From: a virus
DNA length: 29,917 bases
Reading direction: 5' to 3' (one strand)
IMG/VR virus record: IMGVR_UViG_3300024346_000358
Span: 1 to 29,917 of that record
How positions within the stretch are numbered: the stretch's first letter is position 1; each line of letters starts with the position of its first letter. A program made the translations under genes and the position numbers. Below, piece by piece: positions 1 to 26,940 of this stretch. The notes beneath the pieces were generated by a model, which worked only from the letters and a program-made list of their open reading frames with translations, was not told the origin of the DNA and did not search any database.

Positions 1-3000
1 AAGCCGCAAGTATTGATTTTAGCAATACTGATTCATTAAATGTTACAACAGCAGGCAACACATTCTTTATTGATGACACTCAAGTTAGATCAGATTTTTT
101 AAGATTACGTTCAAACAAACTAGAAAGTTTGGTTGGTAATTTAACAATAGATTCAGCACTTAATACTGTAAACATAACTGCAAATACAAATATAACAGGA
201 AATTTAACTACTAGTGGCAATGCTACAATTACTGGCGCTATTGTTAGATTAGGTGATGCAGATTCAGATGAGGTTGTATTTACTTCTGATGTTGCATCAG
301 GCATGATTCCAAATGTACATGCATCTTTTGACTTAGGTTCAACTAGCAAAATGTGGCAAACAGCGTATGCTGAAAAACTAACAACAGATGAAATTAATAT
401 TGAAGGTAACAATATTACAACAACTAGTTCAGATGCAGATTTAGATTTAGATCCAGCAGGTACAGGACAAGTATTATTTAATGAATTTACAGCGGACCAA
501 GCATTTACACAAAGCGGTACAAACTCAACTGCTACTGCACAAATTAATTCAACATTAGGTATTACAGGAACACTTACAGTAAATTCAGACACTACACTTA
601 ATAATGTAATTACTCCAACAATACAAGCAAATGGTTATGCTAACATTGGAACTACTAGTTTTGTAGGTAATAGAATTACAACAAACGACACAAATGCAAA
701 TTTAGAATTAAAACCTGCAGGCACCGGTGCTGTAAAAGTTCCAGGTAATATGCTTGTTGAAAATACTATTATTGCACCTACAGCAAATTATAGTTTTTCA
801 AATGCAACTATGAATAGTAACAGTGGTGAACGATTAATAACAACAAATTATAATGTTGAAAATCAAATCATTGGTGATGTTAGAATTGAAGGCAACGTAA
901 TTGATACACTAAGTTCTAACACAGATTTAGAGTTTAGAGCCAACGGTACTGGCAAAGTTATTATACAAGAAAACGTTGATGCATTAAATGTTAATGTTGA
1001 TGCAACAACAGCAGTATCAACAGCAAACGTTACAACTAATACACACGCTACAAATATAACAGTAAATACATTTTCAACTAAAGATACTAATATTGAATCA
1101 ATTTCAATTATACAAAATAGAATTGATACTGTAGTATCAGATGCAGATTTAGATCTACGTGCAAGCGGAACAGGAACAGTTTCCTTGCAAGAGCATGTAG
1201 ATGTAACAAACGATGTAAACGTTCAAGGATCGACGAATTTGAACGCCACAACTGTTGCTAACGGACTTAGTGCATTACAAGTTACAACTGGAAAATTAAC
1301 AACTGGTAGTACAACAATTGAAGGCATAAATTTATTTGGTAATAGCATTGATACTAATGGCGTAGATACGGATTTACAATTAAGTGCAAGCGGTACTGGT
1401 AGAGTAAGTTTAGGCGAAGATGTTATAGTTACAAATGATTTAACTGCTGACAATATAACATTTGATGCACTAACTATTACAGCAAGTGAACTAGCAAACT
1501 TACAAGTAACAGGTAATAAAATTATATCTAATACACAAATGGTTATAGGTGATATTGCTATTGACGGTAATGCTATTAGTACTCATGTAACTAATGCTGA
1601 TTTAGAATTTAGAGCCAATCAAACAGGTAAAGTGCGTTTACAAGAAAATGTAAATGTAACAAATAATTTTACAGTTAATGGTACACTGACAGCATACAAT
1701 ATTGGTATTGAAGGCGATGTTGATCTTAGTGAACTTGAAACTGACGGTAACATTGAATTTAATGACAACTATGTTACAACTACAGTTTCAGACAGTAACT
1801 TAGAACTTCGAACAAGTGGTGTAGGATTTTTAGATTTACAAGGTATAAAAATTAAAGACACTGTAATTCAATCTAGTTCATCATCAGACCTTGTAATTTT
1901 ACCAGATACATATTTAGAAATTGGATCAACTGGTAGTGTTGTTTTACCAAACAGTACTGTGTCAGGATCTGATCCTGAATACAACAATGGCGCTTTTAGT
2001 AATGTTACAGGCGATGGAAGTAATTTCTTTAGTAGAGAAGTTACAGTTAATGGTGTAAGAATTGTAGCGGCAGGAGCAGTTGGTGGCCAGACAGCAGTGC
2101 CTGATGCCTTTGTTGAAAAGGTAGCACGTATGTTTGAATTATTTACTGACGTAAATGGAGCAGGCATCAACGAAGCATCACAGCGTACATTTATTAAAAC
2201 ACTAAGTGGTGACGCAGGCACGTATCATGCGGCAGTTGGACCAACACTACAACGAGTAGCAAGGGGCGCCGGCAGTGATTATACTCCAAACTTCCTAACA
2301 GACTCTGGTATTGCATCTTACAATTTATCGCCACTATTTGATAGTCACGTTGCTAACGATATGGTTTGGTATCTAAACTCAACTGGTGGTGCTCCTGGAG
2401 ACGGTGACAACGATGCACAAGAAGTAATTGAACACGTATTCCATACACTACATATGCACGGTCTTGACGCAGTATCATTAAAGATGTATTCTTATATTAG
2501 TGCAGACTGGGCAAGCGGTCCTTTGTATGCGGCTATGGAAGAAGCATACGATGCAGGCAAATGGGATTCATCAGGATATGGCGGAAATGCTTGGAAGACT
2601 GATGGGGATGCATTTGAAGTAGCGGCTAAAGAATATTTGTTTTTGTTAAACTTTGGTATGTTTGAATACTCAAGTCTATGGGATGGTGGAAGTCTTAGTC
2701 CTGAATGGACAGACGATATGCGTACACAGTCTGGCATACAAGCAAATAACCCATTAGGCTATGCATTACATAATACATATATTGCTCCTGTTATTAGTAA
2801 GCCTTCATTGACAACAATTAGAAGCATATTCCAAGACGGCGACACAGGCAATCCTACACTAGCAGGTGCATCAGGATATGTAGTAGACAACTACACTCCG
2901 ATATTTTCAAATAATATTGGTGCTGTGCAATATAATTCAGATATTAATCAATTTGCTGGTAGACGTAATAGCGGTGTAAAAAGTGTATTAGGTGGATTGT

Positions 3001-3521
3001 ATAGTGATGATTACCAAACATTTGTAAGACCTAATAGTGATAATACAATTAACTTTACTACACAAGGTGTTAATGTTGCAACTATGTCATATCAAGCAAC
3101 AACACTTAATCGCTTAGAACTAGGTGGCATAGATATTGATGGCAACACAATACAAACAAATACTACAAATAGCGATCTAATACTTGCACCAGAATCTGGA
3201 CAAGGTAAAGTTCAATTTGAAAATTTACACTTCCTTGATAATACAATTACAAATACTTCTAACGGAGCGGCTCTGTTTAATGTAACAGGCGACGGATATA
3301 TTAAACTTAATCAACCCACAGCATTTGTTATACCAGCAGGATCAACAGTACAACGACCAAGTAATCCTCAAGTAGGTGAAATAAGACGTAATAGCGATTT
3401 GGATTATTTAGAAGTTTATACTGTGGGCGGTATTTGGTCAGATGCTTCAGGCTCAGGCGAAACAGTTAGCGAAGATGAGATGAATAATATAATGAATGAA
3501 TATATACTCATCTTTGGATAA
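1..3521 (+). CDS. Giant repetitive tail-fibre-like protein with an embedded unknown domain (5' partial)
   Basis: The reading frame is already open at base 3 with no start in the window, so the N-terminus is missing; the TTG at 129 is merely internal. Bases about 400-1850 encode seven copies of a repeat with the theme N-x-I-x-T, then (S/T)(D/N)-x-(D/N)-L-x-L/F and GTG; an eighth lies near 3140-3220. An early D-L-G-S-T-S-x-x-W segment is typical of phage fibres. Bases about 2055-2860 hold a non-repetitive, helix-rich domain of about 270 residues with the motif EVIEHVFHTLH (from 2421) and many Trp, Tyr and Asp. The C-terminus has a fibre-tip-like VIPAGSTVQRP segment and ends YILIFG. The role is inferred: a long trimeric fibre or other virion appendage. 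The next gene shares repeats and tip. I vaguely recall the embedded domain from large secreted marine bacterial proteins, but its function is unknown to me. Confidence 0.85.
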   Translation, partial: AASIDFSNTDSLNVTTAGNTFFIDDTQVRSDFLRLRSNKLESLVGNLTIDSALNTVNITANTNITGNLTTSGNATITGAIVRLGDADSDEVVFTSDVASGMIPNVHASFDLGSTSKMWQTAYAEKLTTDEINIEGNNITTTSSDADLDLDPAGTGQVLFNEFTADQAFTQSGTNSTATAQINSTLGITGTLTVNSDTTLNNVITPTIQANGYANIGTTSFVGNRITTNDTNANLELKPAGTGAVKVPGNMLVENTIIAPTANYSFSNATMNSNSGERLITTNYNVENQIIGDVRIEGNVIDTLSSNTDLEFRANGTGKVIIQENVDALNVNVDATTAVSTANVTTNTHATNITVNTFSTKDTNIESISIIQNRIDTVVSDADLDLRASGTGTVSLQEHVDVTNDVNVQGSTNLNATTVANGLSALQVTTGKLTTGSTTIEGINLFGNSIDTNGVDTDLQLSASGTGRVSLGEDVIVTNDLTADNITFDALTITASELANLQVTGNKIISNTQMVIGDIAIDGNAISTHVTNADLEFRANQTGKVRLQENVNVTNNFTVNGTLTAYNIGIEGDVDLSELETDGNIEFNDNYVTTTVSDSNLELRTSGVGFLDLQGIKIKDTVIQSSSSSDLVILPDTYLEIGSTGSVVLPNSTVSGSDPEYNNGAFSNVTGDGSNFFSREVTVNGVRIVAAGAVGGQTAVPDAFVEKVARMFELFTDVNGAGINEASQRTFIKTLSGDAGTYHAAVGPTLQRVARGAGSDYTPNFLTDSGIASYNLSPLFDSHVANDMVWYLNSTGGAPGDGDNDAQEVIEHVFHTLHMHGLDAVSLKMYSYISADWASGPLYAAMEEAYDAGKWDSSGYGGNAWKTDGDAFEVAAKEYLFLLNFGMFEYSSLWDGGSLSPEWTDDMRTQSGIQANNPLGYALHNTYIAPVISKPSLTTIRSIFQDGDTGNPTLAGASGYVVDNYTPIFSNNIGAVQYNSDINQFAGRRNSGVKSVLGGLYSDDYQTFVRPNSDNTINFTTQGVNVATMSYQATTLNRLELGGIDIDGNTIQTNTTNSDLILAPESGQGKVQFENLHFLDNTITNTSNGAALFNVTGDGYIKLNQPTAFVIPAGSTVQRPSNPQVGEIRRNSDLDYLEVYTVGGIWSDASGSGETVSEDEMNNIMNEYILIFG
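400..1850 (+). repeat. Coding array of seven degenerate fibre repeats
   Basis: Seven degenerate units are translated from this stretch. Each carries N-x-I-x-T, a DL-x-L or DLEF core and a GTG turn, separated by Thr/Asn-rich beta-prone sequence of variable length. At DNA level the units are diverged, so this is an old protein-level amplification rather than a recent exact duplication. The same unit is used at 6535-8040 in the next gene. Confidence 0.75.
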
Positions 3522-3661: not shown

Positions 3662-6600
3662 ATGGCCGTAGGTCGCATATCCGGACCGCTCTTGAAGTCG
3701 AACTTAATCCGTAATGGGATTGACTTGGCATTTGAGACGGATCTATTATATCTTGATGTAACAAATCAACGTATTGGTATCAATACTAACTCTCCACAAT
3801 ACGATTTAGATGTTAACGGAACAATCAGAACTACAAACTTGGTGTTAGATAAACTAACAGCAGGTAACATCACGATTGAAAATAATGATATTACAAGTAA
3901 CACTGGGACTATTGATTTAGGAACTGCTGATCAAGTTGTATACCAAAATAAACTAGTTGTTGATAGTTTTGAAATTAATGATAATACCATTAGAACAATA
4001 GACTCAGATGCAAATTTAGAAATAAATCCAAACGGTACAGGTACAATTGAGTTACTTGCAAATACTAATGTAACCGGAAACTTGCATGCAACAGGCAATA
4101 TTAGTGCAGACGGAAACATCATATTAGGTGATGCTGATACCGATAGTATTAATTTTAATGCAGAAATTGCTAGTAATATTATACCAGATGCTAGTGGAAC
4201 ATATAACTTAGGTTCATCTGTAAAATCATGGCAAGATGTACACGTTAATAATGTTAACGGACAAACAATAAATGCACAAATTGTTATTTCGGATGGTATT
4301 AATTTAAATACCAGACATGCTAATACTTTATATGTTGCTGAAAACGGAAACAATAATAACACAGGAAATCATCCACAATCTCCTTACTTAACTGTTGAAA
4401 AAGCATTACAAAATGCTACAGCAGGAGATACAATTCACATCCTTCCAGGCGTGTATCAAGAAAGACTTCCATTAGTAATTCCGGTAGGAGTTACAGTTAA
4501 AGGACACAGTATGCGAGCAGTTACTATCAAGCCTGATAGTGTTGACTCAGAAGATGTATTCCATCTTAATGGTGAATCAACTGTTGAAGATTTATCTATT
4601 ATGGATTTCTATTACAACAGTGGAACTAATGTTGGACACGCATTTAGATATGCACCTAATATAAAAGTAACATCACGTTCGCCATATATTAGAAACGTTA
4701 CAGTTATCACAAAAGGTAGTGTAACAAATGCTAGTGATCCAAGAGGATTTAATCAAGGCGATGCTGGACGTGGCGCATACTTAGACGGTAGTGTTGCACA
4801 TACAGATTCAAAAGAAGCAAGTTGTTTATTTCACGCTGTAACATTTATTACTCCTGGCGTTGATGCATTAACATTTACAAACGGTGTTAGAGTTGAATGG
4901 TTAAACTCATTTACATATTTTGCTAATAGAGGCTTTTATGCTGTAAACGGGTCAACTGGTTTAAAAGGTGCAGGTCAAACAGAATTTAGAGTAAGCGATG
5001 TAACTGGTTCATTTAGTGCTGGAGAAACATTTGCAGTAAACAGTATTGACGGAAGTACAGTTGTTGCTAGTGGAGTAATTACTGACAAAGATGCATCTGG
5101 TAAGTTTAAGATTGCTGGCAATGTATCAGGTATTACTGAAGCATTAACTAGAACAGAAAAAACAATTAAATTTAATGGCGGTGCTAAGTTACAAACAGGT
5201 ATTAAAAAGTTTGGAACAGCAAGTGCAAACTTAGATGGCGTTAATAGTTATCTTAGTGTAGGAGCAAACGACGAGTTTGGCTTTGGCACAGATGACTTTA
5301 CAATTGAAGCATGGATATATGCAACGTCAACCACAGGCGAACAGCCTATATATGATTTACGTGCAGGTATTGCTACAGATACAGCACCATACTTTTACTT
5401 AGACGGAACAACTTTAAAATACAAAGTAGGAACTTCTGAAAGAATTAGTGGCGGCACTATTACTATTAATACATGGCATCATGTTGCTATAAGCAAACTT
5501 ACTGACGGTGTGCGTATGTACATTGACGGGAACCAAGTTGGTAACACGTATGTTCATAATACTGACTATGGATTTACTAAGCCAGTACTTATTGGTACAA
5601 ACTTTAATTTAGCAAATTACTTTACTGGCAATATTGATGATGTTAGAATTAGTAACAGTGCTAGATATCTTGATACAACTTATACTGTTCCAACTTCGCA
5701 GATAATCGGCGATAGTAATTGTGTATTGTTAACTCACTTAGACGGTGTAAATAATGCAACTACAGTTAATGAGAATATAAAAATAAGACAAAATTTATCA
5801 TTTAGTGGCGGTGCTACCGCTAACTTTATTGATTTTTACAACACAACAGACTTTGGTGGCGAATTAAGATCGATTGGTTCTGCAAACGTTTATGGTAACA
5901 AAGGTGCAGTAGGTGACGGTACTGGTGTTATTATGTATCTAGTAAGTCATAACTTTGCATACATTGGTAACGGCAAAGAAGTTACTAATGATGAAACTAC
6001 AGTAGTGCAAGCAAACGAAGTTGAAGAACTCAACAGTGCTAAAGTAAGATTTACAAGTGTTGATCACAAAGGTGACTTTAGAGTTGGTGATAATTTTTAT
6101 GTTAACCAAGAAACAGGCGAAGTTGTATTTGATGCTGTTAACTTAAACATTACAACACCAGATGGTATTACATTTGGCACAGGCGGCAATGTAACATTTA
6201 TTGATGGTAACAAAATTGAAACAGGTGATTTTAGAATAAGTGGAAACACTATTGAAACACTTACCCAAAATTTTATTATTGATAGTGCAACTAATATAGT
6301 TGACATTGAAGCAGACACAAATATTACAGGTAATTTAAATGTTACTGGTAACTTTACACTAGCCGGTAATATTAATATTGGTGACGCAGATACAGATAGT
6401 GTTGAGTTTGCATCAGATGTAAACAGTGATATTTTACCAAACTTTGACAACACATACGACTTAGGTAGTACATCTCAACGCTGGAAAAACATTTATTCAA
6501 ATCAGTTTGACAACGGTAACTTAAAAATTGAAGGCAATTCAATTACTACACAAGATAGTGATAGTGATTTACAACTAAATGCTGTAGGCGCAGGATCTGT

Positions 6601-9840: not shown

Positions 9841-9859
9841 TTAGTGATTGGGAAAAACA

Positions 9860-12800
9860 ATGGCAGAATTTAGAATTGATAGAATTAGATTTAACTGGAA
9901 AGGTGTATGGACTGCATCAACAGCATACATTAAAGATGATGTTATAAGTTATGGTGGTAAAGTATTTGTTGCTTTAACAAATCATACTGCAAGTGCAGAC
10001 TTTAATGATGATTTAGACTTTCTTGTATCAGGAGAATCTACTCCTAAATGGGAGCAAATGGGTGATGGTCGTCAATGGAAGGGCGAATGGCAGCCAGAAG
10101 AGTTCTACAAAGTAAATGATGTTGTCAAGTACAGAGGTATACTTTATAATTGTATTGATAGCCATACTAGTGCAACAACTTTAAGTTTAGGCCTTGAATC
10201 AAACGATTCAAATTGGGCACCTTTTGCAAAGGGTGATAATTATCTTGCAACTTGGACTGCTAGTACAATATATAAAAAGAACGATTTAATTAAATACGGC
10301 GGAAGATTATATAGTTGCGTAACTGATCATACAAGTAATACTGTTGAGTTAGGTTTAGAAGCAGATCAAGCAAAATGGGCAGTTTATAATAAAAGTGATG
10401 CATGGCAAGGTGTTTGGTTAGAAAATACAAGATACAAAGTACAAGATATTATACGTTATGGTGGTAATGTATATCGTTGTATAATTGGGCATACTAGTAA
10501 CAGTGATATTAGAGAAGGTGTTGGCTCAGACTTAGGTGACGATTCAACAGCGGCAAAATGGGAATTAGTTGTCGAAGGCATTGAATTTAAAGGTGCATGG
10601 TCTGGAACACAATGGTATAAAACAAATGATATTGTAATTTATGGACCAAACTTATACATAGCAAAGCGTGGTATGAGTGGTACAGATAATTTTGATGATG
10701 TAAGCGACTGGGATATTTGGGTCCCGGGATTAGGCTATGAAGGAATATGGTCTAATAACGAAGTTTATCAACCTGGTGATTTAGTTACGTATGGCGGATA
10801 TACATATACATCATTAACAATTAATATTGGTTCAAATCCAAGTTCGCAAGGACTTGCTCAAGATGTAGGAGATTGGGAAGTATTAGTTCGCGGATATAAT
10901 TTTAAAGGCGAATGGAGTATTCTAAACCCATATGCACCAGGGGATGTTGTACGCAAAGGTGGGTACTTATACGAATCATTAGTAAATAATTTAGCAATCG
11001 AATTAGTTGAACCTGGCGACCCTGATGTTGAAGATGGTAATGCTACTAAGTGGAGATTAATACAAACTGGATTTGCTTGGATGGGCGAATGGGTAGAATC
11101 AAAAGCAACAGAAGATGGCGATAGTACATTATTTGAGTACTTACCTGGACAAGTTGTTATGGATGAAAGTGAAACTTATATTTGTAAACTACAACATTTT
11201 AGTAATATAAGAGAAGCAAGGCCAAAAGAAGATACAGATATACAATCTGGCGCTCAATTATATTGGACAAAATATGCTGGTAATAATGAAACAAGTGCAG
11301 AAAACAATGTACTACGTTACACAGGTGATATTAGAACGTATTCTACTAAAGACGATGGAAGTACAGCAGGAACATCAAGACTAGCAATCGGTCCAGCAGG
11401 CGAACTATTAAAAGTTGACGAAGATGATACATTAAAATATGATACATTATTTGAAATTAATAAAGTGTACTATGTTAGTGCTTACGGAGAAGATATTCCA
11501 ACAAACGGAATAAATCCAGCAAAGCCATTTAAGACAGTAAAATATGCATGTCAATTCCTTCAAGGTAATCTTGAAGCAAGGACGCCGGCGACAATTTTTA
11601 TAGCAACTGGAATGTACAAAGAGTTGCTTCCAATTGTTGTTCCTAGGGATACAGCATTAGTAGGCGACGAATTACGTTCAACAGTTATTATGCCAGCAGA
11701 CGGATATGAACTTGACAATATGTTCTACGTACATAATGGATCCGGCATACGTAACATGACGTTACAAGGATTATCTGGTACACTCGGCAATCCAAATGAC
11801 AATTTAACTAGGCGACCAACAGCAGGAGCATATGTTTCATTAGATCCTGCAACAGGCCCAAGTGCTGAATATGCACATATTGTAACAAAATCACCATACG
11901 TACAAAATGTAACAACATTTGGTACAGGATGTATTGGAATGAAAGTTGATGGCGATTTACATACTACTGGTAACAAATCAATTGTTGCAAACGACTTTAC
12001 ACAAATTCTAAGTGACGGTATTGGATATTGGGCTAACGCTGATGGTAAATCAGAACTTGTGTCAGTGTTTACATACTACTGTCATATTGGATATCTAGCA
12101 ACCAATGGTGGTAAAGTTCGTGCATTGAACGGAAACAACTCGTACGGAGACTATGGTTCTGTTGCAGAAGGGTTTGATGTCGAAGAAGTTCCTATTACAG
12201 CATCTGTAGATAATAGAAGTCAACAAGCACAAATTTTTGAAACATTTAATGATGGTGACAAGATACACGGTGTTTCCTATACACATGCTGGTGAAGGATA
12301 TACAACCGCACAATTAGATATTGTAGGTAATGGTGTTGGTGCTACTGCAACATTTAATGAATTTAGAACCGGCGGCGTTAAACAAATTTTTGTTACTGAA
12401 GAAGATTCAAACTTCATTGGCGGTAGTAATTACACATTTAAAGCAAACAAAGCACAAATTGGTACTCCTACTTCATTAACATTAAGTGGTGCTGACACAG
12501 GAACAGAAGCCGACTATATAGGACAGCGTTTATATATTCACGCTGGCAAAGGCGTTGGACAATATGCTGTAATTAGCGGACTTAATACTACTAATAAAGT
12601 TTGTACTGTTGTTAAAGAATCAAATGGCGAACCAGGCTGGGAACATGTAACAGGCCGTCCTATCGAAGCAACAATAAATGACACAGCACGTTATTATATT
12701 GAGCCAAGACTGTCAGTTGCTGAACCACCATACCAAGTTCCAAGTGTTACTGTAGGTGCAGAAGAGTGGTCCGATATTAAACGTGGAACTAGAAATGATG

Positions 12801-14752
12801 CAGATTTTTGGGTAGCGGCTCATCCAAATGGAGGTAGTATTAGTTCAGATGGTAACGGATTTTCAGGATTCACTAGAAGCAGTAAAAGTGGTTTAGTTGC
12901 TATTACTACTTCTGGAGCAATTTGTTTAGTTAACCCAGATGGTAATAACAATGCAGGGTCATATAGTAATGATGCTGGTTCTACATGGAGTGACACTTCG
13001 CTTGGATTAAGCGGCACACAGACAGCAACAGGTGTCGAAGCGGCATCTTCAAACGAATTTTGCGTTATGACATTTACTGATACAAATTCTCCACCAACTT
13101 CAGTTAAAACATCAACAGATGGCGGTAATAGTTGGGGATCGGCTACAGTACCAGCAGGACAATATAATGATGTTGCATACGGAAATAGTAGATGGGTAAT
13201 AGTTTCAGGAAGTGTTGCTTCCCCAAGTAATGTTGGCGCATACTCAGATGACGGAAATACTTGGGTACAATTTACACTTCCAGCATCAAGTGCTTGGTCC
13301 AAAGTAATATATGGTAAAGATAGATTTGTAGCAGTTACTAATAAAACTGACAGTAGTACAGCAGAAACAGCAGTAAGTTTTGATGGAATAACTTGGTATG
13401 CAGGTACTATGGAGCCAGGTGAGTGGACAGGCCTTGCTTATGCACAAGGACAATATGCCGCAGTAAAAAGTGACACAGGTGCAACTTCAGATGTAATTGC
13501 ATTTAGTAGAGACGGGTTCCATTGGAAAACTAAATTAATGTCAGCAGGTGCTGAAATTAGAGGCGGCATTGCAGGAGCCAGTAATTCAAGTGACTACATT
13601 GCTGTAACAAAAACACAAAATAATGCTGATAAGATAACATTTGGTTGTACAGCATTAGGAAGACCAATTGTTGGTAGTGGTAGAATTGGTACAGTTATTT
13701 TATACGAAACAGGATCTGGATATGGTGCAAGCCCTACAGTAACAGTATTTGATAATAAAAATACATTAGACGTTACTACAGATGCACAAGTTGCTAACGG
13801 AGTATTACCGCAACCTACATTTACTAACAACGGTACTGGTTATTTTAGAGCAACATCGTCGATTAATCAAAATGGTGACGGATTTGCTGATATTGTTCAA
13901 ATTGCAGATACGTTAATTTTAGATAATGTAAGCAAACTTCCAGGACCTGGAGATAATATTAGTATTCAAGGCATTGACGGAGTAACGTACTTTGTTGTTA
14001 AAATTCTAACATCAACTGGGGTACTTGGAGCGTATAAGTTAAAATTACAAATTAGTCCAAATCTAGGACGTAAAGAAGCACCAGTACACGGAGAAAATGT
14101 TACTATTAGACAACAGTATAGCCAAGTTAGATTAACAGGACACGATTTCCTAGATATTGGTACTGGTAACTTTTCAAGCACATCGTATCCTGGACTATAT
14201 GTATTTGGTTACAATCCAGATGAAAATGCTGAACCAAAACAGTTCCAAGAAGTTAGCCAATATAATGGCGGTAGAGTATTTTATACAAGTACTGACCAAG
14301 ATGGTAACTTTAGAGTTGGTGAACTGTTTGAAGTTGAACAAGCAACTGGTACAATTAGTATTAATGCTAGTTTCTTTGAACTAGACGGACTTGAAGAACT
14401 TAGACTTGGCGGGGTTGTACTCGGCGGTACAGGAGCAGTTGTTAGAGAGTTTAGTACAGATCCAACATTTGCGGCAAACTCAAATAATATTGTACCAACA
14501 CAAAGAGCAATAGGAAAATATGTAACACAGCGAGTTTCATCAGGTGGTTCAGATCTTAAAGTTAACAGATTAAACGCAGGTGATATAAGTTTCGAAGGCA
14601 ATAGAATATTTAAAGTATTAGGTGGTACTATTGATTTTACATCACCAGTTACTATTCAAGGCAATGTGTCAGGTGATATGGCAGCACAAAACTACTTTAC
14701 ATCAGGTGCGGCACCAGCACTTGGTGGAGCGCCAGGATTTGGCGATGATTAA
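9860..14752 (+). CDS. Giant CBM-like repeat / beta-helix / BNR structural protein
   Basis: 1630 residues from ATG 9860. A TTG at 9848 is in frame, but the paralogue at 14794 begins with the same MAEF...RIRF at its ATG, so 9860 is preferred. Residues about 11-475 hold eight repeats of the form W-x-G-x-W...Y...(D/G)D-(V/I)-(V/I)-x-YGG-x-x-Y...H-T-S...W, resembling CBM5/12 chitin-binding modules. Residues about 534-770 are a right-handed beta-helix (FKTVKYACQF, LLPIVVPRDTALVGDELRST, NMTLQGLSG). Residues about 1034-1223 carry five Asp-box-like motifs (STDGGNSW, SDDGNTW, SRDGFHW and others) suggesting a BNR beta-propeller-like segment. Residues about 1420-1500 hold the shared block RLTGHDFLDIGTGNFS and DQDGNFRVGELFEVEQATG. 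The C-terminus is Gly/Ala-rich. Inferred: a multi-domain glycan-recognising appendage. No depolymerase active site is evident. Confidence 0.88.
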   Translation: MAEFRIDRIRFNWKGVWTASTAYIKDDVISYGGKVFVALTNHTASADFNDDLDFLVSGESTPKWEQMGDGRQWKGEWQPEEFYKVNDVVKYRGILYNCIDSHTSATTLSLGLESNDSNWAPFAKGDNYLATWTASTIYKKNDLIKYGGRLYSCVTDHTSNTVELGLEADQAKWAVYNKSDAWQGVWLENTRYKVQDIIRYGGNVYRCIIGHTSNSDIREGVGSDLGDDSTAAKWELVVEGIEFKGAWSGTQWYKTNDIVIYGPNLYIAKRGMSGTDNFDDVSDWDIWVPGLGYEGIWSNNEVYQPGDLVTYGGYTYTSLTINIGSNPSSQGLAQDVGDWEVLVRGYNFKGEWSILNPYAPGDVVRKGGYLYESLVNNLAIELVEPGDPDVEDGNATKWRLIQTGFAWMGEWVESKATEDGDSTLFEYLPGQVVMDESETYICKLQHFSNIREARPKEDTDIQSGAQLYWTKYAGNNETSAENNVLRYTGDIRTYSTKDDGSTAGTSRLAIGPAGELLKVDEDDTLKYDTLFEINKVYYVSAYGEDIPTNGINPAKPFKTVKYACQFLQGNLEARTPATIFIATGMYKELLPIVVPRDTALVGDELRSTVIMPADGYELDNMFYVHNGSGIRNMTLQGLSGTLGNPNDNLTRRPTAGAYVSLDPATGPSAEYAHIVTKSPYVQNVTTFGTGCIGMKVDGDLHTTGNKSIVANDFTQILSDGIGYWANADGKSELVSVFTYYCHIGYLATNGGKVRALNGNNSYGDYGSVAEGFDVEEVPITASVDNRSQQAQIFETFNDGDKIHGVSYTHAGEGYTTAQLDIVGNGVGATATFNEFRTGGVKQIFVTEEDSNFIGGSNYTFKANKAQIGTPTSLTLSGADTGTEADYIGQRLYIHAGKGVGQYAVISGLNTTNKVCTVVKESNGEPGWEHVTGRPIEATINDTARYYIEPRLSVAEPPYQVPSVTVGAEEWSDIKRGTRNDADFWVAAHPNGGSISSDGNGFSGFTRSSKSGLVAITTSGAICLVNPDGNNNAGSYSNDAGSTWSDTSLGLSGTQTATGVEAASSNEFCVMTFTDTNSPPTSVKTSTDGGNSWGSATVPAGQYNDVAYGNSRWVIVSGSVASPSNVGAYSDDGNTWVQFTLPASSAWSKVIYGKDRFVAVTNKTDSSTAETAVSFDGITWYAGTMEPGEWTGLAYAQGQYAAVKSDTGATSDVIAFSRDGFHWKTKLMSAGAEIRGGIAGASNSSDYIAVTKTQNNADKITFGCTALGRPIVGSGRIGTVILYETGSGYGASPTVTVFDNKNTLDVTTDAQVANGVLPQPTFTNNGTGYFRATSSINQNGDGFADIVQIADTLILDNVSKLPGPGDNISIQGIDGVTYFVVKILTSTGVLGAYKLKLQISPNLGRKEAPVHGENVTIRQQYSQVRLTGHDFLDIGTGNFSSTSYPGLYVFGYNPDENAEPKQFQEVSQYNGGRVFYTSTDQDGNFRVGELFEVEQATGTISINASFFELDGLEELRLGGVVLGGTGAVVREFSTDPTFAANSNNIVPTQRAIGKYVTQRVSSGGSDLKVNRLNAGDISFEGNRIFKVLGGTIDFTSPVTIQGNVSGDMAAQNYFTSGAAPALGGAPGFGDD
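9890..11286 (+). repeat. Eight tandem CBM5/12-like coding repeats
   Basis: Eight units of about 50-70 residues each keep an opening W...W, a central Y-x-x-x-D-(V/I) and YGG-x-x-Y, and a closing Trp before a Gly. Units six and seven use the more canonical YQPGDLV and YAPGDVV. The last unit is longer and has lost YGG. The paralogous gene has the same number of units (14824-16131), so the array predates their duplication. Confidence 0.7.
11888..11922 (+). repeat. 35-bp direct repeat, copy 1 (in the beta-helix)
   Basis: This 35-base stretch encodes most of K-S-P-Y-V-Q-N-V-T-T-F-G and is identical to 17713-17747 in the paralogous gene, in the same orientation about 5.8 kb apart. The surrounding beta-helix is also alike at DNA level (for example a 26-base match around 12056 and 17878). 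It is a plausible substrate for recombination between the paralogues. Confidence 0.8.
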
Positions 14753-19884: not shown

Positions 19885-20205
19885 ATGGCAACAGGAAGAT
19901 TAGGCGCATCAAATATGTCAGCAGGTTCGAACACTTCGATTTACACCTGCCCAGCAGATACGTATGCGGTTGCGAGTTTAAACATTTGCAACAGAGGAAA
20001 CCAAGCAACGTCAATTAGAATTGCTGTTGCTGATAACGCTACGCCAGCATTAGGCGAATATATAGAATACGAAGTTGAATTATTAGCAAAAGGTGTATTA
20101 GAAAGAACAGGGATAGTTTTAGCCGCAGGGCAAATTATTGTTGCTTATACATCAGTTGCAAATATTTCAGCAGTAGTTATGGGCATTGAAACGTCTACAG
20201 CATAA
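19885..20205 (+). CDS. Small virion-type beta protein, hypothetical
   Basis: 106 residues, preceded by GGAGAA at 19871-19876, two bases after the upstream stop. No membrane segment or signal peptide. The sequence alternates short hydrophobic strands (YAVASLNICN, TSIRIAVA, GIVLAAGQIIVAYTS, ISAVVMGIE), which suggests a beta-sandwich, and its layout resembles the 109-residue protein at 8784. Position after a giant fibre gene suggests a small adaptor, neck or decoration protein. The function is not recognised. Its stop codon overlaps a late promoter candidate for the next gene. Confidence 0.75.
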   Translation: MATGRLGASNMSAGSNTSIYTCPADTYAVASLNICNRGNQATSIRIAVADNATPALGEYIEYEVELLAKGVLERTGIVLAAGQIIVAYTSVANISAVVMGIETSTA

Positions 20206-20228: not shown

Positions 20229-20561
20229 ATGGGAAGATATATAACAACTACAGGTACTGCTGGCGTTACTACTAGAGAAGTTAGTACAACGTTCAGTGCT
20301 ACAGTAAACGATCGAATCCTTGCAAATACAGCAAGTTCAGGATTCACTATCACTTTACCAGCAAATTCAAGTTTACTTGTTTCTGATACAATTCAAATTA
20401 TTGATATATCAAACAACGCAGGCTCGAATAACATAACTGTCGGAAGAAACAGTAGTAATATTAATGGATCAGCAGAAAACTTAACGATTGACGTTAGTGG
20501 AGCGATTGTTACATTAATTTATACAGGTTCTACATACGGTTGGGTTGTTGGTTCAGTTTAA
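20229..20561 (+). CDS. Small fibre-tip-like protein
   Basis: 110 residues from ATG with GGAGAAGG eight bases upstream. The pattern FTITLPANS, then DTIQIIDISNNAG, NNITVGRNSSNINGSAENLTI and IVTLIYTGSTYGWVV is the short beta unit (a G...ITV...I-x-G...L-x-Y-x-G-x-x-x-x-W signature) often seen in C-terminal tips of phage tail fibres, here as a stand-alone gene. It might form a trimeric knob that connects or caps a fibre, or carry the adhesin encoded next. The assignment rests on the pattern and position; no catalytic residues are visible. Confidence 0.7.
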   Translation: MGRYITTTGTAGVTTREVSTTFSATVNDRILANTASSGFTITLPANSSLLVSDTIQIIDISNNAGSNNITVGRNSSNINGSAENLTIDVSGAIVTLIYTGSTYGWVVGSV

Positions 20562-20576
20562 TAGGGGAAAACAAAA

Positions 20577-21533
20577 ATGGCATCATTAGAAGCATTAATT
20601 AAAGCAAAACTACCATCCACCGCTGAGGAAAATCTCGAGGTTGGCCGGTTATACAGTTTTGCTGAAGGCAACACTTACACTAAGTTTTGTAAGTGTACGT
20701 GCTGGTGCCCACCTAGTAACGGTACAGCAGTTATTGAAGTATGGGGCGCTGGCGGATCTGGCGCAAAAATGTGTTGTTGTGGTAACGGAATTCCAGGCAA
20801 CTCAGGATCATACTCAAAAGCAACACGTACAATGACAACAAGCGATTACTTTTACGGATGTACAGGTTTTGCTTGCGGTAACTCAGACGCTTTGTGTTTT
20901 AGAGGTTGCTCAGAACCAACAATGGTTTGTATTGTAGCGGCGGCATGTAATAGTTGCATGTGTGCAAAAGGTGGTAAAGGTGGAGTGAGTATTTGCTCAA
21001 CAACACCAAGCATGTACTGTTGCTTTAGAGCAAACGGATTTTGTTACACTAACACAGGACCAAACTGCGGTACAATTTGTAACCAATGTAGTGGATCATG
21101 GGACGCTATTGCATATGGCGGAGATGTAAACAGATGCGGAAATATTTCGTGTATGGGATTTCATGGATGTTATGCAAACTGTGTTTGTCTGTTTAGACAA
21201 ATGTTAGCATTTCCTCCAGGCATGATTGCAGAGTGCGGCGGTATTGTACAATACGGTATGGCAACTGACTCAGCACACTCTAATTGGTCCGGCGCTGGAC
21301 AATTAGAAGCGATTGCGGCAATTAACGGTGCAGGGAAAAGCCCAGGATATGGTATTCCGTGGAAAGCATGCTTTAGAGGCGATGTGTCTTGCGGTTGTTA
21401 TAACGCAAACGGTTGCTCAAGTGTACTTCCATACGGTATGGGTGCTCCGGGACCACAGCCGTGTCCAGGTGTTAGAGATCACGCAACCCGTGGCGGCATG
21501 GGTGCAATCCGTGTTAAATTTATAGAAAGTTAA
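20577..21533 (+). CDS. Cysteine-rich, glycine-rich adhesin-like protein (copy 1)
   Basis: 318 residues with 33 Cys by my count, about one residue in ten, and many Gly. A short N-terminal arm (residues 1-30) has few of either. Next comes VIEVWGAGGSGAKMCCC...GNSGSYSK, which is the opening of the Gly-rich fibre-adhesin fold (Gly_rich_2-like; compare gp38-type adhesins of T-even phages). Further on are CFRGCSEP, SCMCAKGGKGG, CCF-x-AN, NCGTICNQCS, YGGDVNR, PPGM-x-x-ECGG and HSNWSG. Pairs and triplets of Cys sit where ordinary family members have Gly or Ser. There is no signal peptide. The next gene is a paralogue of equal length with matching Cys-rich blocks. Likely a receptor-binding tip. Whether the Cys form disulphides or bind metal is open. 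AGGGGA at 20563 is the ribosome site. Confidence 0.85.
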   Translation: MASLEALIKAKLPSTAEENLEVGRLYSFAEGNTYTKFCKCTCWCPPSNGTAVIEVWGAGGSGAKMCCCGNGIPGNSGSYSKATRTMTTSDYFYGCTGFACGNSDALCFRGCSEPTMVCIVAAACNSCMCAKGGKGGVSICSTTPSMYCCFRANGFCYTNTGPNCGTICNQCSGSWDAIAYGGDVNRCGNISCMGFHGCYANCVCLFRQMLAFPPGMIAECGGIVQYGMATDSAHSNWSGAGQLEAIAAINGAGKSPGYGIPWKACFRGDVSCGCYNANGCSSVLPYGMGAPGPQPCPGVRDHATRGGMGAIRVKFIES

Positions 21534-21547
21534 GGAGTACATTAAGG

Positions 21548-22504
21548 ATGGCAACATTAAAGTCAATATTAGAAAGTAGGTCTTCTTCAGGAGCGGAAAC
21601 AAACCTCGAAACTGGAAAGATTTGGGCTTACTCGACGATTGCTTCATACTCCACATATCCAGGCTGTTTTTGTTGGATTGCTCCAGGTAACGGTAATGTA
21701 ACCCTTGAAGTAATTGGAGCAGGCGGCAGCGGATCGAGAATGTGTTGTTGTTCAGCAACAATTTCAGGTAACTCAGGATCGTACGCTAAAAGAGATTTAA
21801 CAGTCAGTACAAACTGTTACATATGTGGTAGAGCAGGTAAAAGTTGTAGAAACGGTGGCCTTTGTCACAGAGGTTGTTCAGAGCCAGGAGAAGTTTGCTG
21901 GACAGGAAACGGCGGAAGTGCTGGATGTATGTGTGCTCAAGGCGGCTGGAGTGGCGCAAGTTGGTGTACAACAGGTACAGCACGTAGATGTTGTTTCTCA
22001 GCAAACAACTGGTGTTATACAGGATATAACGGATATTGCGGATTAGTATGTAATGCATGTAGCAATAGTTGGAAAAACAATGCATATGGCGGCGAAGTAA
22101 ATAGACCAGGCGTAAACAGTTGTGTTACATTTTGGCATTGTTATCCAAACTGTAATTGTTCAACTATTCATCATACTGCATTACCTCCGGGCATGTTCTC
22201 AGAATGTGGCGGTGTTGCATCGTACGGAACAGACGGTGACAACGGTCACTCAGAGTGGTCCGGAATGACGCTAAACGGCTATATCAACGCACTAAATATG
22301 TTGTCAAGAATGCCTGGTACAGGTACGCTATGGTCAGAATGTTGGAATGGAGTAAGACAGTGTGGTTGTTATGAAACCCAAGGTTGCTCAATGTTTGTTC
22401 CACACGGGTCGGGCGGTCCGGCAGCAACACCATGTTCAGGAGTTAGAGATAACGGTTGGGCAGGCGGTGACGCACTAATTAGAATTAAATACGTAGAAAG
22501 TTAA
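21548..22504 (+). CDS. Cysteine-rich, glycine-rich adhesin-like protein (copy 2)
   Basis: 318 residues with 30 Cys by my count, exactly the length of the upstream copy and 14 bases after its stop, with AAGGAG at 21532-21537. It shares VIGAGGSGSRMCCC, GNSGSYAK, CHRGCSEP, GCMCAQGG, CCFSANNWCYT, YCGLVCNACS, YGGEVNR, PPGM-x-x-ECGG, HSEWSG and CGCYETQGCS. The first block differs (GCFCW in place of CKCTCWC) and the copy has more Trp, so the scaffold is kept while surface positions vary. This pattern suits two receptor specificities or a heteromeric tip. Cytoplasmic virus assembly is normally reducing, so disulphides, if any, would form after lysis. Confidence 0.85.
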   Translation: MATLKSILESRSSSGAETNLETGKIWAYSTIASYSTYPGCFCWIAPGNGNVTLEVIGAGGSGSRMCCCSATISGNSGSYAKRDLTVSTNCYICGRAGKSCRNGGLCHRGCSEPGEVCWTGNGGSAGCMCAQGGWSGASWCTTGTARRCCFSANNWCYTGYNGYCGLVCNACSNSWKNNAYGGEVNRPGVNSCVTFWHCYPNCNCSTIHHTALPPGMFSECGGVASYGTDGDNGHSEWSGMTLNGYINALNMLSRMPGTGTLWSECWNGVRQCGCYETQGCSMFVPHGSGGPAATPCSGVRDNGWAGGDALIRIKYVES

Positions 22505-22517
22505 TGGAGATAGAAAA

Positions 22518-23213
22518 ATGAATAAAACTTTTACAGTTACATACGCAGACGAGCCGTACAAAACGACCGTTGCAGATGGTAATACGTTTGAATGTACGTA
22601 TACTGGACCTAGATATATTTTAGGACAAGTTGATCGCGATGATGATCAAGTTAGAGAAGCAGGTCGTGCAGACAAAGCAGACGATACTGCATTAGATGCA
22701 ACAGGATACGAGCCTGATGAATATGATTATATCGTATTAGATGCTGCCGAGAGCGATGATATGGCGTTGCGTTGTGCATTTATGACAGACGAATATACAC
22801 ATCCTGATGTGGACGACTATTCCGAAACAATTACAACTGCAGACGGTACAGAATATACATGGACTCATGTATATGAAGGCACAACTGGTATGCTTGCACA
22901 TATCTATGTAGGCGACAGTTTACTATATAATCACGAAACAACAACATGGACAAACCCAACGTTGCGTACTCACAATAATACACGTGAATCAACATTGGGA
23001 TCGTGGGTTTTACAAGCGGCAGGTATTAGGCGTGCAATTTCATCAGATGGTGACGCTATTAACAACTTAACTAGTGCTGAAAAAACTACGTTGGCAAATC
23101 ACGCAACATGGTTAGAATCAATAGCGGTTCAATATGCAGATATTGATCATTGGAAAGTTAACTATCCAGATACAGTCTTACCAACTTATGAAGACCCAAA
23201 CGATAATCTATAA
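22518..23213 (+). CDS. Acidic hypothetical protein, possible fibre chaperone
   Basis: 231 residues, starting at ATG with GGAGA at 22506-22510. The first half is strongly acidic (runs such as DRDDDQ, YEPDEYDY, DVDDYSE). The middle has Trp/Tyr-rich beta-like sequence, and residues about 155-220 look helical (GSWVLQAAGIRRAI, LTSAEKTTLANHATWLESIA) before the end YPDTVLPTYEDP. I do not recognise a family. Its place directly after two adhesins is where fibre-assembly chaperones (gp38/Tfa type) often lie, and a small acidic protein with a helical C-terminal half would suit that, but no Tfa motif is clear. It is the last gene before a terminator, so it closes this transcription unit. Confidence 0.75.
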   Translation: MNKTFTVTYADEPYKTTVADGNTFECTYTGPRYILGQVDRDDDQVREAGRADKADDTALDATGYEPDEYDYIVLDAAESDDMALRCAFMTDEYTHPDVDDYSETITTADGTEYTWTHVYEGTTGMLAHIYVGDSLLYNHETTTWTNPTLRTHNNTRESTLGSWVLQAAGIRRAISSDGDAINNLTSAEKTTLANHATWLESIAVQYADIDHWKVNYPDTVLPTYEDPNDNL

Positions 23214-23304: not shown

Positions 23305-24252
23305 ATGACTAGAAGTAAAGCATTTTTCTTAAACGGTGGCGCAGGCCGCATGCTGTGTTCAATACCAGCATTAGAGTTGTATGCAGAAGAATCAGGAGAT
23401 ACTGATTTTATTATAGTATGCGAAGGCGGCACTGACATGTTTAAAGGTCATCCGCTATTACATAAACGTGCATATGACCCATGGCACAAAAATTTATTTG
23501 AAACTGAAATTAAACATAGACAAGTAGTAAATCCAGAACCTTATCAAGTATGGGAATACTATAATCAAGAATGTAATTTGTCACAAGCGTTTGATATCAT
23601 TCTTAACAATAAAGGTGTTAGGCAATTGCCTAAACCGTTATTAAAATTAAGTAAAGACGAATTACTAGTTGGTCGTAAATTACTTAATGAAATTAAAGAA
23701 AAAATAAAAAAAGAAAAAGTATTAGTAGTACAACCATTTGGTAGAGGTATCGAAGTTATAGACGACACTCCTGTTGATGTTACTGCACGGAGTTTTGAAT
23801 TTAAAGATTTAAAACAAATGCTTAAGAAATTAGAAAAAGATTATGCTATTGTGATGATGAGTGAGATGAAAATAGAACTCAAAGGCGAAGGTTTAAAAAA
23901 TGAAGTAGCAATGCCTGAAGGATTAAATTTAAGGCAGTGGTCTGCATTGATTAAAATGGCGGATCATTTTCTAGGTTGCGATAGTGTCGGTCAACATTTA
24001 GCATATGCTGTTGGAACAAAAACTACCGCAGTGATTGGATCTACTTTTCCAGTCAACGTAAGTTATCCTAATGATTCAGATTTAAAAATTGTCGACCTTG
24101 GAATGACTGAAAGAGTATACGATCCTATTAGAATTACACAAGACGAAACTGTTAATAGACACAATGAAAATATTATGGCAATGGATGACGCAATACAAGA
24201 CTATGTTATTTCAGTTGTCAAAGGTGATATAGATCCAGATTCAGAGGAATAA
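23305..24252 (+). CDS. GT9-like glycosyltransferase (heptosyltransferase fold)
   Basis: 315 residues, close to the usual length for glycosyltransferase family 9. The N-terminus FFLNGGAGRMLCSIPALELY matches the glycine-rich GxGD...xPAL opening of the GT-B fold, with the Asp replaced (GAGR). The C-terminal donor-site region at residues about 219-257 reads ADHFLGCDSVGQHLAYAVGT, then AVIGSTFP, matching the family's D-S-x-x-x-H-x-A-x-A and G-x-T-x-P signatures. GT9 enzymes mainly transfer heptose or related sugars from nucleotide donors onto lipopolysaccharide, on the cytoplasmic side. The phage substrate is unknown. It begins a cassette with an SGNH-like hydrolase and a carbamoyltransferase (3-base gaps), so a shared glycan target is likely. 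Ribosome site TGGAGA at 23291. Lys- and Glu-rich middle (residues about 118-140). Confidence 0.82.
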   Translation: MTRSKAFFLNGGAGRMLCSIPALELYAEESGDTDFIIVCEGGTDMFKGHPLLHKRAYDPWHKNLFETEIKHRQVVNPEPYQVWEYYNQECNLSQAFDIILNNKGVRQLPKPLLKLSKDELLVGRKLLNEIKEKIKKEKVLVVQPFGRGIEVIDDTPVDVTARSFEFKDLKQMLKKLEKDYAIVMMSEMKIELKGEGLKNEVAMPEGLNLRQWSALIKMADHFLGCDSVGQHLAYAVGTKTTAVIGSTFPVNVSYPNDSDLKIVDLGMTERVYDPIRITQDETVNRHNENIMAMDDAIQDYVISVVKGDIDPDSEE

Positions 24253-25134: not shown

Positions 25135-26940
25135 ATGAGCAGACCAGTATGGATCGCAGGTATAGCAAGAGGACATAACGCTGGAGTATGTTTAATTAAA
25201 GACGGTGAAGTTGTATTTGCTGTTGAAGAAGAAAGACTAAGTCGTCAAAAGTACGACGGCGGACCGTTTGCATCAATGGTCAAAATACTTGAATACACTG
25301 ATAGGTTAGATTATCTTGTCATTGCACATACACAAAAATTAGCAGAAACAGCCGGTAAGGTTGATTATAGTGGTGACGATGTGTATACAGGACTTGCACG
25401 TAAATTAGGATTAATTGATAAAAAGTCAAATGCTACTACATATGAACATCCTCAAGTTATTGATTTGGCATTTATGCATCATAAGTTACACAGTGCTTGT
25501 GCATTTTACCGTTCTGGATTTGATAGTGCAGTAAGTGTTATTGTTGACGGCGCTGGTACGTTTGTTCCGTTAGGTATTAATAATGAACAAGTAATGAGTT
25601 GGGAAGTCGAAAGCATTATTGACTGTGATTATCCGGCAGTATTTAATACAATGCATAAAGTATACGGAACTAGAGATCCTATACAGGGCGGCATTGTACA
25701 AATGGATAGCGCCCAATTTGGCGAAAGCGGCCGTACGCACTCAGCAGTTGTAAGTGACAGAGCAGGTATCGTTAAAGCATATGAAGCCGCTACTATGTTT
25801 TGTGGATGGTCGAGTATTGAAGCCGGAAAAACTATGGGACTATTTCCTTATGGTAAATCTAACGATAAGTTTCCAAAGTTATTTGAATCCGATGCTGACT
25901 ATACACTAACAAATAGAAATATTGTAGTGCCAAATTATCCTAATGGAGCATTTATTAATTCAGGGTTATATGAAGAATTAAACGAACATGCAAAATCTAA
26001 AGACGATGATGTAACACTATTACAAAGTAGACGTGATATTGCATATGCAGTACAAACAGAAACACAGGAACAAGTTGTAGAATTAATACGTAATGCTGTA
26101 GATTTATCAGGTAAAAAGAAAGTAGTTATTAGTGGCGGCTACGGACTTAATTGCGTTGCTAATTATCATTATCTAGAAGCATTAAAAGATGACGGTATTG
26201 AAATTTATGTCGAACCAGTAAGTAACGATGCAGGAACAGCAATGGGCGCGGCAATGATGTTTTGGTATGGCCTTGAAGATGATACTGAAAAACGCCAAAC
26301 ACAAACACTTTATCTAGGTCCGGATAATAACTATACTACTGAGCAAATTATTGATAAGGCTAATTTAGCCGGAGTTGAAATTAAAGATGCTACTCACGAG
26401 GATGTAGTAAACTTAATTACAAGTAAAAATATTGTTACTTTGTTCCAAGGTAAAAGTGAAAATGGTCCGAGAGCATTAGGCAATCGAAGTGTACTGTACG
26501 ACCCAACTGATCCAGATGGTAAAGACTTTGTTAACGAAGTAAAACACAGAGAATATTTCCGTCCGTTTGCAGGTAGTATTTTACAAGACGATGTACATGA
26601 ATGGTTTGATTTGCGTGGTATGGAAGATAGTCCGCACATGATGTACGCTGTAAATTGTCAACCAGGCATTGAAGAAAAGATTCCTGCTATTATTCACGTA
26701 GATGGAACTTGTCGTATTCAAACAGTAACACATGAACAAAACCCACACTACTATGATTTAATTAAAGCATTTAAAGAAAAGACAGGATGTCCGATTATCT
26801 TTAATACTAGTTTTAATTTAGGTGGCGAGCCATTGGTCGAAACATTTGAAGATGCTATTTGGACATTAGAGAATAGTGATATTGAATATTTGTATCTTCC
26901 TGAGTTTGGAAAGTTAATTACAGTTAAAAACACTTCGTGA
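25135..26940 (+). CDS. NodU/TobZ-family O-carbamoyltransferase
   Basis: 601 residues, full length for the family, with ATG nine bases after GAGGA (25121-25125). The N-terminal Kae1/TsaD-like ATPase part has GHNAGVCLIKDGEVVFAVEEER (H14), FMHHKLHSA (H115, H116, H119) and VIVDGAG (D138), the metal- and nucleotide-binding positions, then VISGGYGLNCVANY (about 331-344) and EPVSNDAGTAMGAAM. The C-terminal part has GKSENGPRALGNRS (439-452), the carbamoyl-adenylate pocket signature, then REYFRPFAGSIL and IIFNTSFNLGGEPLVE. The enzyme uses carbamoyl phosphate and ATP to place a carbamoyl group on a hydroxyl, usually of a sugar (nodulation factor, aminoglycoside, cephem in known cases). All motifs look intact. 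With its two partners it probably decorates a glycan. DNA-base carbamoylation is a less likely alternative considered separately. It is the last gene of the cassette. Confidence 0.93.
   Translation: MSRPVWIAGIARGHNAGVCLIKDGEVVFAVEEERLSRQKYDGGPFASMVKILEYTDRLDYLVIAHTQKLAETAGKVDYSGDDVYTGLARKLGLIDKKSNATTYEHPQVIDLAFMHHKLHSACAFYRSGFDSAVSVIVDGAGTFVPLGINNEQVMSWEVESIIDCDYPAVFNTMHKVYGTRDPIQGGIVQMDSAQFGESGRTHSAVVSDRAGIVKAYEAATMFCGWSSIEAGKTMGLFPYGKSNDKFPKLFESDADYTLTNRNIVVPNYPNGAFINSGLYEELNEHAKSKDDDVTLLQSRRDIAYAVQTETQEQVVELIRNAVDLSGKKKVVISGGYGLNCVANYHYLEALKDDGIEIYVEPVSNDAGTAMGAAMMFWYGLEDDTEKRQTQTLYLGPDNNYTTEQIIDKANLAGVEIKDATHEDVVNLITSKNIVTLFQGKSENGPRALGNRSVLYDPTDPDGKDFVNEVKHREYFRPFAGSILQDDVHEWFDLRGMEDSPHMMYAVNCQPGIEEKIPAIIHVDGTCRIQTVTHEQNPHYYDLIKAFKEKTGCPIIFNTSFNLGGEPLVETFEDAIWTLENSDIEYLYLPEFGKLITVKNTS

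Follow-up and report, generated by a model that had tools for sequence, protein, structure and literature searches.

The stretch of DNA analysed here, called the window, is a viral sequence of 29,917 nucleotides (IMG/VR record IMGVR_UViG_3300024346_000358). It contains two adjacent genes for cysteine-rich proteins of equal length, flanked by small tail-fibre-related genes and a putative fibre assembly chaperone gene (Table 1). Both frames are open throughout, with no internal stop. Cysteine makes up 10.4% of protein 1 and 9.4% of protein 2, and glycine 15–16% of the pair overall. The other 14 genes called in the window hold 45 cysteines in 8602 residues (0.5%), a background at which the binomial chance of such contents is about 1e-31 for protein 1 and 1e-27 for protein 2. 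The proteins are identical in 146 of 319 alignment columns (46%); 28 of the 33 cysteines of protein 1 align with a cysteine of protein 2, against identities at 118 of the 284 other positions. The original prediction of two tandem, Cys-rich paralogues of 318 residues is confirmed. Of the motifs it named, CCC, CC, CxC, and GNSGSY occur in both proteins, as does RGCSEP, but the longer HRGCSEP is present in the second only. GC content peaks at 0.457 in positions 21,001–22,000, compared with 0.32–0.42 in the remaining 1-kb steps, as would follow from the glycine and cysteine codons.

Table 1. Genes of the putative fibre-tip module and the fibre gene at the window start.
Feature	Position	Strand	Details
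Fibre gene, probably cut by window start	129..3521	+	related fibre gene follows the third Cys-rich paralogue in relatives
106-aa tail-fibre-related protein, same module	19885..20205	+	phrog_11338 tail fiber protein, E 1.1e-10
110-aa fibre-end protein	20229..20561	+	related to the C-terminal part of a 1477-aa 'tail fiber-like protein' in S-SSM7
Cys-rich protein 1, putative fibre tip	20577..21533	+	318 aa, 33 Cys; phrog_4205 E 2.1e-12
Cys-rich protein 2, putative fibre tip	21548..22504	+	318 aa, 30 Cys; phrog_4205 E 9.5e-8
231-aa putative tail-fibre assembly chaperone	22518..23213	+	phrog_9740 E 2.4e-7

The profile of phrog_4205, a PHROG family of unknown function, spans most of each protein (residues 32–316 of protein 1 and 31–316 of protein 2). 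Proteins of phages S-CAM1 and S-SSM7 match it at E 1e-63 or better, and 119 of the 120 members of the alignment of relatives (A6) match at E ≤ 0.001. Like the window proteins they are Cys-rich and have the same neighbours, as three genes in tandem; the window's subgroup differs in having two genes plus one. An IMG/VR scan with protein 1 found 15 loci and one with an alignment found 110 relatives (80 top loci retained); further scans with the named-phage relatives described next gave 249 and at least 291 relatives (80 and 77 loci retained). Against named phages, tblastn of protein 1 gave no match at 1e-5, and tblastn of protein 2 at E ≤ 10 gave weak matches alone, including one to S-CAM1 at E 2 that the gene order at that locus supports. 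The syntenic locus of this Synechococcus phage has three Cys-rich genes, with 36, 31, and 25 cysteines, and S-CAM3, S-SSM7, and Sf-FS3 have three each. In the cultured cyanophages S-CAM1, S-CAM3, S-SSM7, and P-SSM2, members of the family are annotated as 'hypothetical protein'. The annotated starts of two of the S-CAM1 genes (6961 and 7944 in locus L083) seem too far downstream; contigs identical to the S-CAM1 matches have ORFs of 310 and 299 aa, compared with the annotated 278 and 259 aa. At another locus (L010:10973–11931), two ORFs of 242 and 67 aa stand in place of an intact second Cys-rich gene, which points to a broken gene or a sequencing error. The fibre region of Syn9 (gp35–gp40), used as a control, has Gly-rich proteins with 2–8 cysteines and none of the Cys-rich kind.

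The family also borders on a known glycine-rich domain. Some proteins of S-SSM7, S-CAM1, S-CAM3, and Sf-FS3 score above the Pfam cut-off for PF21722 Gly_rich_2, and 25 of the 120 aligned relatives match it at E ≤ 0.01; the window pair has no match, and the profile gave none in the three IMG/VR records examined (G001, G007, and G017). Cysteine is common in the window's family where typical Gly_rich_2 members have glycine. Other Pfam names among the 120 relatives, namely Ntox44 (2), EF-hand_8 (1), and HmuI-like (1), at E 0.0026–0.0078, were taken as chance. A scan of contigs from cellular genomes found one relative, on a contig assigned to a Euryarchaeota MAG (SAT205; PAOW01000006.1), which bears a pair of Cys-rich genes close to one end, a chaperone-like gene, GT9-like genes, and a carbamoyltransferase gene. 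This contig is most likely phage DNA binned with the MAG.

Copy number was counted over runs, defined as neighbouring family ORFs on the + strand with more than 5% cysteine (the cysteine filter removed none). Two re-cuts of the window (L016 and L017) were left out; near-identical contigs are counted separately, and several loci share one contig. Among 244 such runs, three genes are found in 193 (128 clear of the locus ends), two in 28 (18 clear of them), and one in 23; none has four or more. The two-gene runs away from locus ends come from the window subgroup and from locus L075. Of the single genes, 21 are the third copy of the window subgroup and two belong to AG-345-F15. In the window subgroup, two copies are tandem and the third is 22–24 kb upstream of the pair. 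The gene next to this detached copy is a fibre gene in 19 of the 21 single-copy loci, the remaining two of which end there, and its best match is window 129–3521 or 3662–8779. In close colinear relatives this puts the third copy just left of where the window starts; by the same gene order, the third paralogue of the window's own phage would lie just outside the sequence. The tandem pair is real in the window, but it belongs to a trio in relatives. Exactly three copies are present in 13 of 16 chosen long records, and in the other three the contig stops short of where the missing copy is expected. An exception is the whole genome of the Prochlorococcus phage P-SSM2, in which two members were detected (36 and 36 cysteines) with the chaperone-like gene between them. 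Two members are also seen in AG-345-F15, a P-SSM2-related fragment of 19 kb.

The surroundings of these runs are nearly invariant. A relative of the 110-aa fibre-end gene is directly upstream in all 149 testable runs of at least two genes, the window included, and a match to a phrog_9740-type profile immediately follows all 206 of 206 runs; in both counts near-identical contigs are separate entries and a few profile-building rows are included. The 106-aa gene is found at the equivalent place in S-CAM1, S-CAM3, and P-SSM2. The downstream-gene profile was built from an alignment (A7) of the genes of the window, S-SSM7, Sf-FS3, S-CAM1, S-CAM3, and P-SSM2 and iterated once on these loci, so that the source genes match it by construction. 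When these six genes were scanned, those of S-SSM7 and Sf-FS3 scored 38.4 and 42.6 bits for PF16778 Phage_tail_APC, above its cut-off of 26.6, and matched 'tail fiber assembly' PHROGs; those of the window, S-CAM1, S-CAM3, and P-SSM2 fell below any Pfam cut-off. Across 12 phage records PF16778 matched in five, four of them over the cut-off. The match is in the gene after the trio in S-SSM7 and Sf-FS3 and, by position, in record G017, and elsewhere in the genome in P-SSM2 (27 kb) and S-CAM3 (47 kb, below cut-off); among the 12, S-CAM1 and the A1/A4-type records had none. From this pattern, the assignment of the window gene as a chaperone rests on its phrog_9740 link. One chaperone-like gene is present in the 182-kb record G001, and P-SSM2 has a second, weaker match to the chaperone profile elsewhere in its genome.

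Five carbohydrate-binding stretches of the CBM_5_12 type (PF02839, E 3.6e-37) occur in the large fibre-like protein encoded at positions 9848–14752 of the window. After the tip module come glycosyltransferase-9-like (GT9-like) and carbamoyltransferase genes (23,305–24,252 and 25,135–26,940). All 50 runs with sufficient flank, 49 being A1/A4-type, have a relative of the carbamoyltransferase gene no more than 6 kb downstream; the enzyme could have a putative role in modifying a glycan or the tip. In the Pelagibacter phage Mosig, a fibre with the same 110-aa end is followed by a Gly_rich_2 protein that is poor in cysteine, with 4 in 516 aa. The 61-kb genome of another Pelagibacter phage, HTVC023P, has five Gly_rich_2 matches compared with one in Mosig, so the copy number of the domain varies in these phages; one of the five proteins, for which cysteines were counted, has 6 in 491 aa.

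The cysteines are strongly conserved. When the pair is aligned with 17 relatives (19 sequences), 26 of the 33 cysteine columns are invariant, compared with 59 of 285 other columns (Fisher p 5e-11, only a guide because the rows are related). The clusters CCC, CxC, and CC are likewise conserved among relatives. Cysteines that are not conserved in homologues would have spoken against the original prediction, and this did not occur. Pairwise co-variation of cysteines is weak. The best weighted correlation is 0.60 with about 31 effective rows; in the A1/A4 set the best unweighted value is 0.68, and a tree-aware test gave no significant pair among those listed.

In trees the copies group by position, to different degrees in different groups. 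In the A1/A4 tree, each of the three window-type copies has a clade of its own, with supports of 100/100, 100/99, and 100/100, with L075 falling outside the second-copy clade, and in the three-in-a-row group the first, second, and third genes need 3, 3, and 2 changes. In a quick tree of the S-CAM type, a single branch suffices to separate the second position from the rest, and likewise the third, and two changes are required for the first. The S-SSM7-type set is clustered by order but less cleanly, with 3–4 changes each, so that position-specific clades are cleanest in the window and S-CAM types. A tree of 57 rows across subfamilies groups A1+A4 and A2 at 100/100 and A3 at 96/90, and each of the subfamilies A1+A4, A2, and A3 has its own three paralogues. 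This points to repeated triplication or to homogenised trios (concerted evolution); three are kept either way. Within-trio identity is about 30–62% in the six trios checked, which means that the copies are distinct.

A structural model of protein 1 was calculated with AlphaFold2 from 120 sequences (75 A1/A4-type and 45 A2/A3-type rows). It has a pLDDT of 82.3 and a pTM of 0.81 and is weak at residues 12–20 and about 261–280; an earlier model from the 19-row alignment A1 was dropped (pLDDT 36.7). In comparisons with Foldseek and VIA-align, the fibre of cyanophage Pam3 ranks first, with Z scores of 15.7 and 15.3. Pam3 gp24 aligns with residues 20–318 of the model over 195 residues (Z 15.7, rmsd 3.1 Å); the Foldseek TM-scores are modest, at 0.41–0.50. 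A tail-tip chain of Bxb1 is next (Z 12.0), then the TNF-like glycine-rich domain of ALK/LTK (Z 8.1–9.5), an animal receptor domain for which the likeness is of fold only, before a drop to 4.5. Among predicted viral proteins, S-CAM3 matches the model first. Sequence searches against solved structures with P0001, A1, A2, and A6 as queries gave nothing relevant. The predicted fold is thus TNF-like plus glycine-rich and already known from Pam3 gp24, and the suggestion of a new fibre fold is not supported.

Pam3 gp24 is described as trimeric, with receptor binding proposed for its TNF-like/Gly-rich tip, and it pairs with the chaperone gp25 (PDB 7ypx and 7yfw; PMC9608196). Its glycine-rich domain is 39% glycine, and the loops are the part proposed for receptor recognition (PMC9608196, section 3.2); the main text of that report uses neither 'cystein' nor 'disulfide'. 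The Pam3 fibre was likened by its authors to the structure of S16 gp38 (PMC9608196), and PDB 6F45, an S16 gp38-type polyglycine adhesin, is not among the structural matches listed for the protein 1 model. In Pam3 a fibre chaperone accompanies the fibre, and the product of the putative chaperone gene in the window may do likewise. Unlike the window's family, with three genes in relatives and about 10% cysteine, Pam3 gp24 is a single protein forming a homotrimer and has a long helical part; this long N-terminal trimerising helix is missing from the protein 1 model, which has a short helix at residues 4–10 alone. Only one of the 33 cysteines of protein 1 is in a strand of at least six residues (50 of 318 residues are in such strands; p 0.04, with the six-residue limit picked after the model was seen), and 21 of the 33 are outside any listed strand or helix. 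By these strand counts the cysteines are mainly in loops. Their conservation together with their near-absence from long strands of the model suggests that they serve the structure away from the beta core.

The notion of a receptor-binding tip gains from these results, in that the predicted fold matches the Pam3 tip and all testable runs of two or three genes are preceded by a fibre-end gene and followed by a gene resembling those of fibre chaperones. The best reading, to which we give roughly an even chance, is a disulphide-hardened, receptor-binding fibre tip built from three different subunits. The two window genes would encode tip subunits of a tail fibre of a marine T4-like phage, each a TNF-like beta-sandwich with extended glycine-rich loops bearing many cysteines, and the loop ends at the distal fibre tip would bind the receptor. 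The pair and the third paralogue would come together in a single unit, most likely heterotrimeric, on a trimeric fibre end made by the 106- and 110-aa genes, and the downstream chaperone would assist the folding of this three-subunit tip. After lysis, the loop cysteines would most likely join as disulphides and harden a tip that glycine packing may hold in the Cys-poor relatives. No match to PF04777 (Erv1/ALR-type sulphydryl oxidase) was found in the 12 phage records, but the control genomes likewise had none, so that no conclusion can be drawn from it.

Most phage fibre tips are either homotrimeric or single adhesins. A precedent for three paralogues in one trimer is complement C1q, a heterotrimer of three paralogous TNF-fold chains. 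The likeness extends to three paralogous genes and a predicted TNF-like fold; C1q differs in being eukaryotic and having a collagen stalk, and TNF/C1q-family chains match the model weakly (Z about 3.7–4.5). A stronger form of the proposal is more tentative and somewhat doubtful. It holds that a homotrimeric TNF-like/glycine-rich tip was repeatedly turned into an obligate heterotrimer, a non-interchangeable, Cys-loaded trio served by one chaperone, in at least three aquatic phage lineages, with disulphides, some of them linking chains, formed when the virion is exposed to oxygen. Among the open-access papers listed by the searches, judged by title and abstract opening (most subscription journals being outside), none describes Cys-rich trios or heterotrimeric fibre tips. 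Virion proteomics turned up for no family member; the data named in PMC3037559 cover S-SM1, S-PM2, and Syn9, phages without demonstrated family members.

The pair had been taken to suggest two specificities, which needs changing, and because most lineages keep exactly three distinct paralogues, one three-part assembly fits better than interchangeable specificities. Nevertheless, P-SSM2 with two members and AG-345-F15 showing two count against that assembly, and with four large fibre-like genes upstream of the pair, different paralogues could cap different fibres. The copies may accordingly be three independent adhesins, each a homotrimer or monomer on its own fibre or branch with its own specificity. 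The third copy of the window subgroup adjoins a fibre gene of its own, 22–24 kb from the pair, and the Gly_rich_2 domains in five places in HTVC023P make several tips per phage possible. However, the number of copies hardly ever departs from three; the clades by position are maintained without shuffling; and the sole chaperone-like gene found is at the pair, whereas nine loci examined near the detached copy have none. Independent adhesins therefore appear rather unlikely. It is improbable that this is an ordinary family maintained by duplication or gene conversion, in which three has no structural meaning. Paralogues within a subfamily are indeed more similar to one another than to those of different subfamilies, and P-SSM2 manages with two, but none of the 244 runs reaches four, the members of the six trios checked are distinct in sequence, and three separate subfamilies all have three.

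A different question is what the cysteines do. In place of disulphides, they may bind zinc, iron, or an iron-sulphur centre, loaded in the reducing cytoplasm in which the proteins are made, for structure or for docking on metal-uptake receptors. The conserved CCC, CxC, and CC clusters would suit such a site, the weak pairwise co-variation is compatible with it, and an iron-for-entry hypothesis exists for other phages. However, neither window protein matches any Pfam family at E ≤ 1, metal-binding families included, and the 120 relatives give one weak EF-hand match (E 0.0026), attributed above to chance. Metal binding is unlikely, and disulphides are the likelier reading.

The host of the window phage is probably not a cyanobacterium. 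A cyanophage origin was judged unlikely, with PF00124 (psbA-type) absent from all eight A1/A4-type long records, some of which may be fragments; the A2-type record G017 has PF00124. The capsid protein of one relative (locus L032) is about 67–70% identical to those of the 15 best-listed phages, out of 2486 records matched overall, and these infect Sinorhizobium, Vibrio, Pseudomonas, Xanthomonas, and Pectobacterium. These phages are T4-like. Relatives of the family are spread through ocean and lake phages.

The presence of the family in cultured S-CAM1, S-CAM3, S-SSM7, and P-SSM2 makes laboratory testing possible now. If the proposal is true, a tip of exactly three paralogues would represent repeated symmetry breaking in a viral attachment organelle and would offer three different faces for receptor binding. 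A conserved cysteine content of about 10% also raises a testable question, namely by what route hardening or metal loading comes about in a protein that folds in a reducing cytoplasm, and whether this sets the stability of the phage in oxic water.
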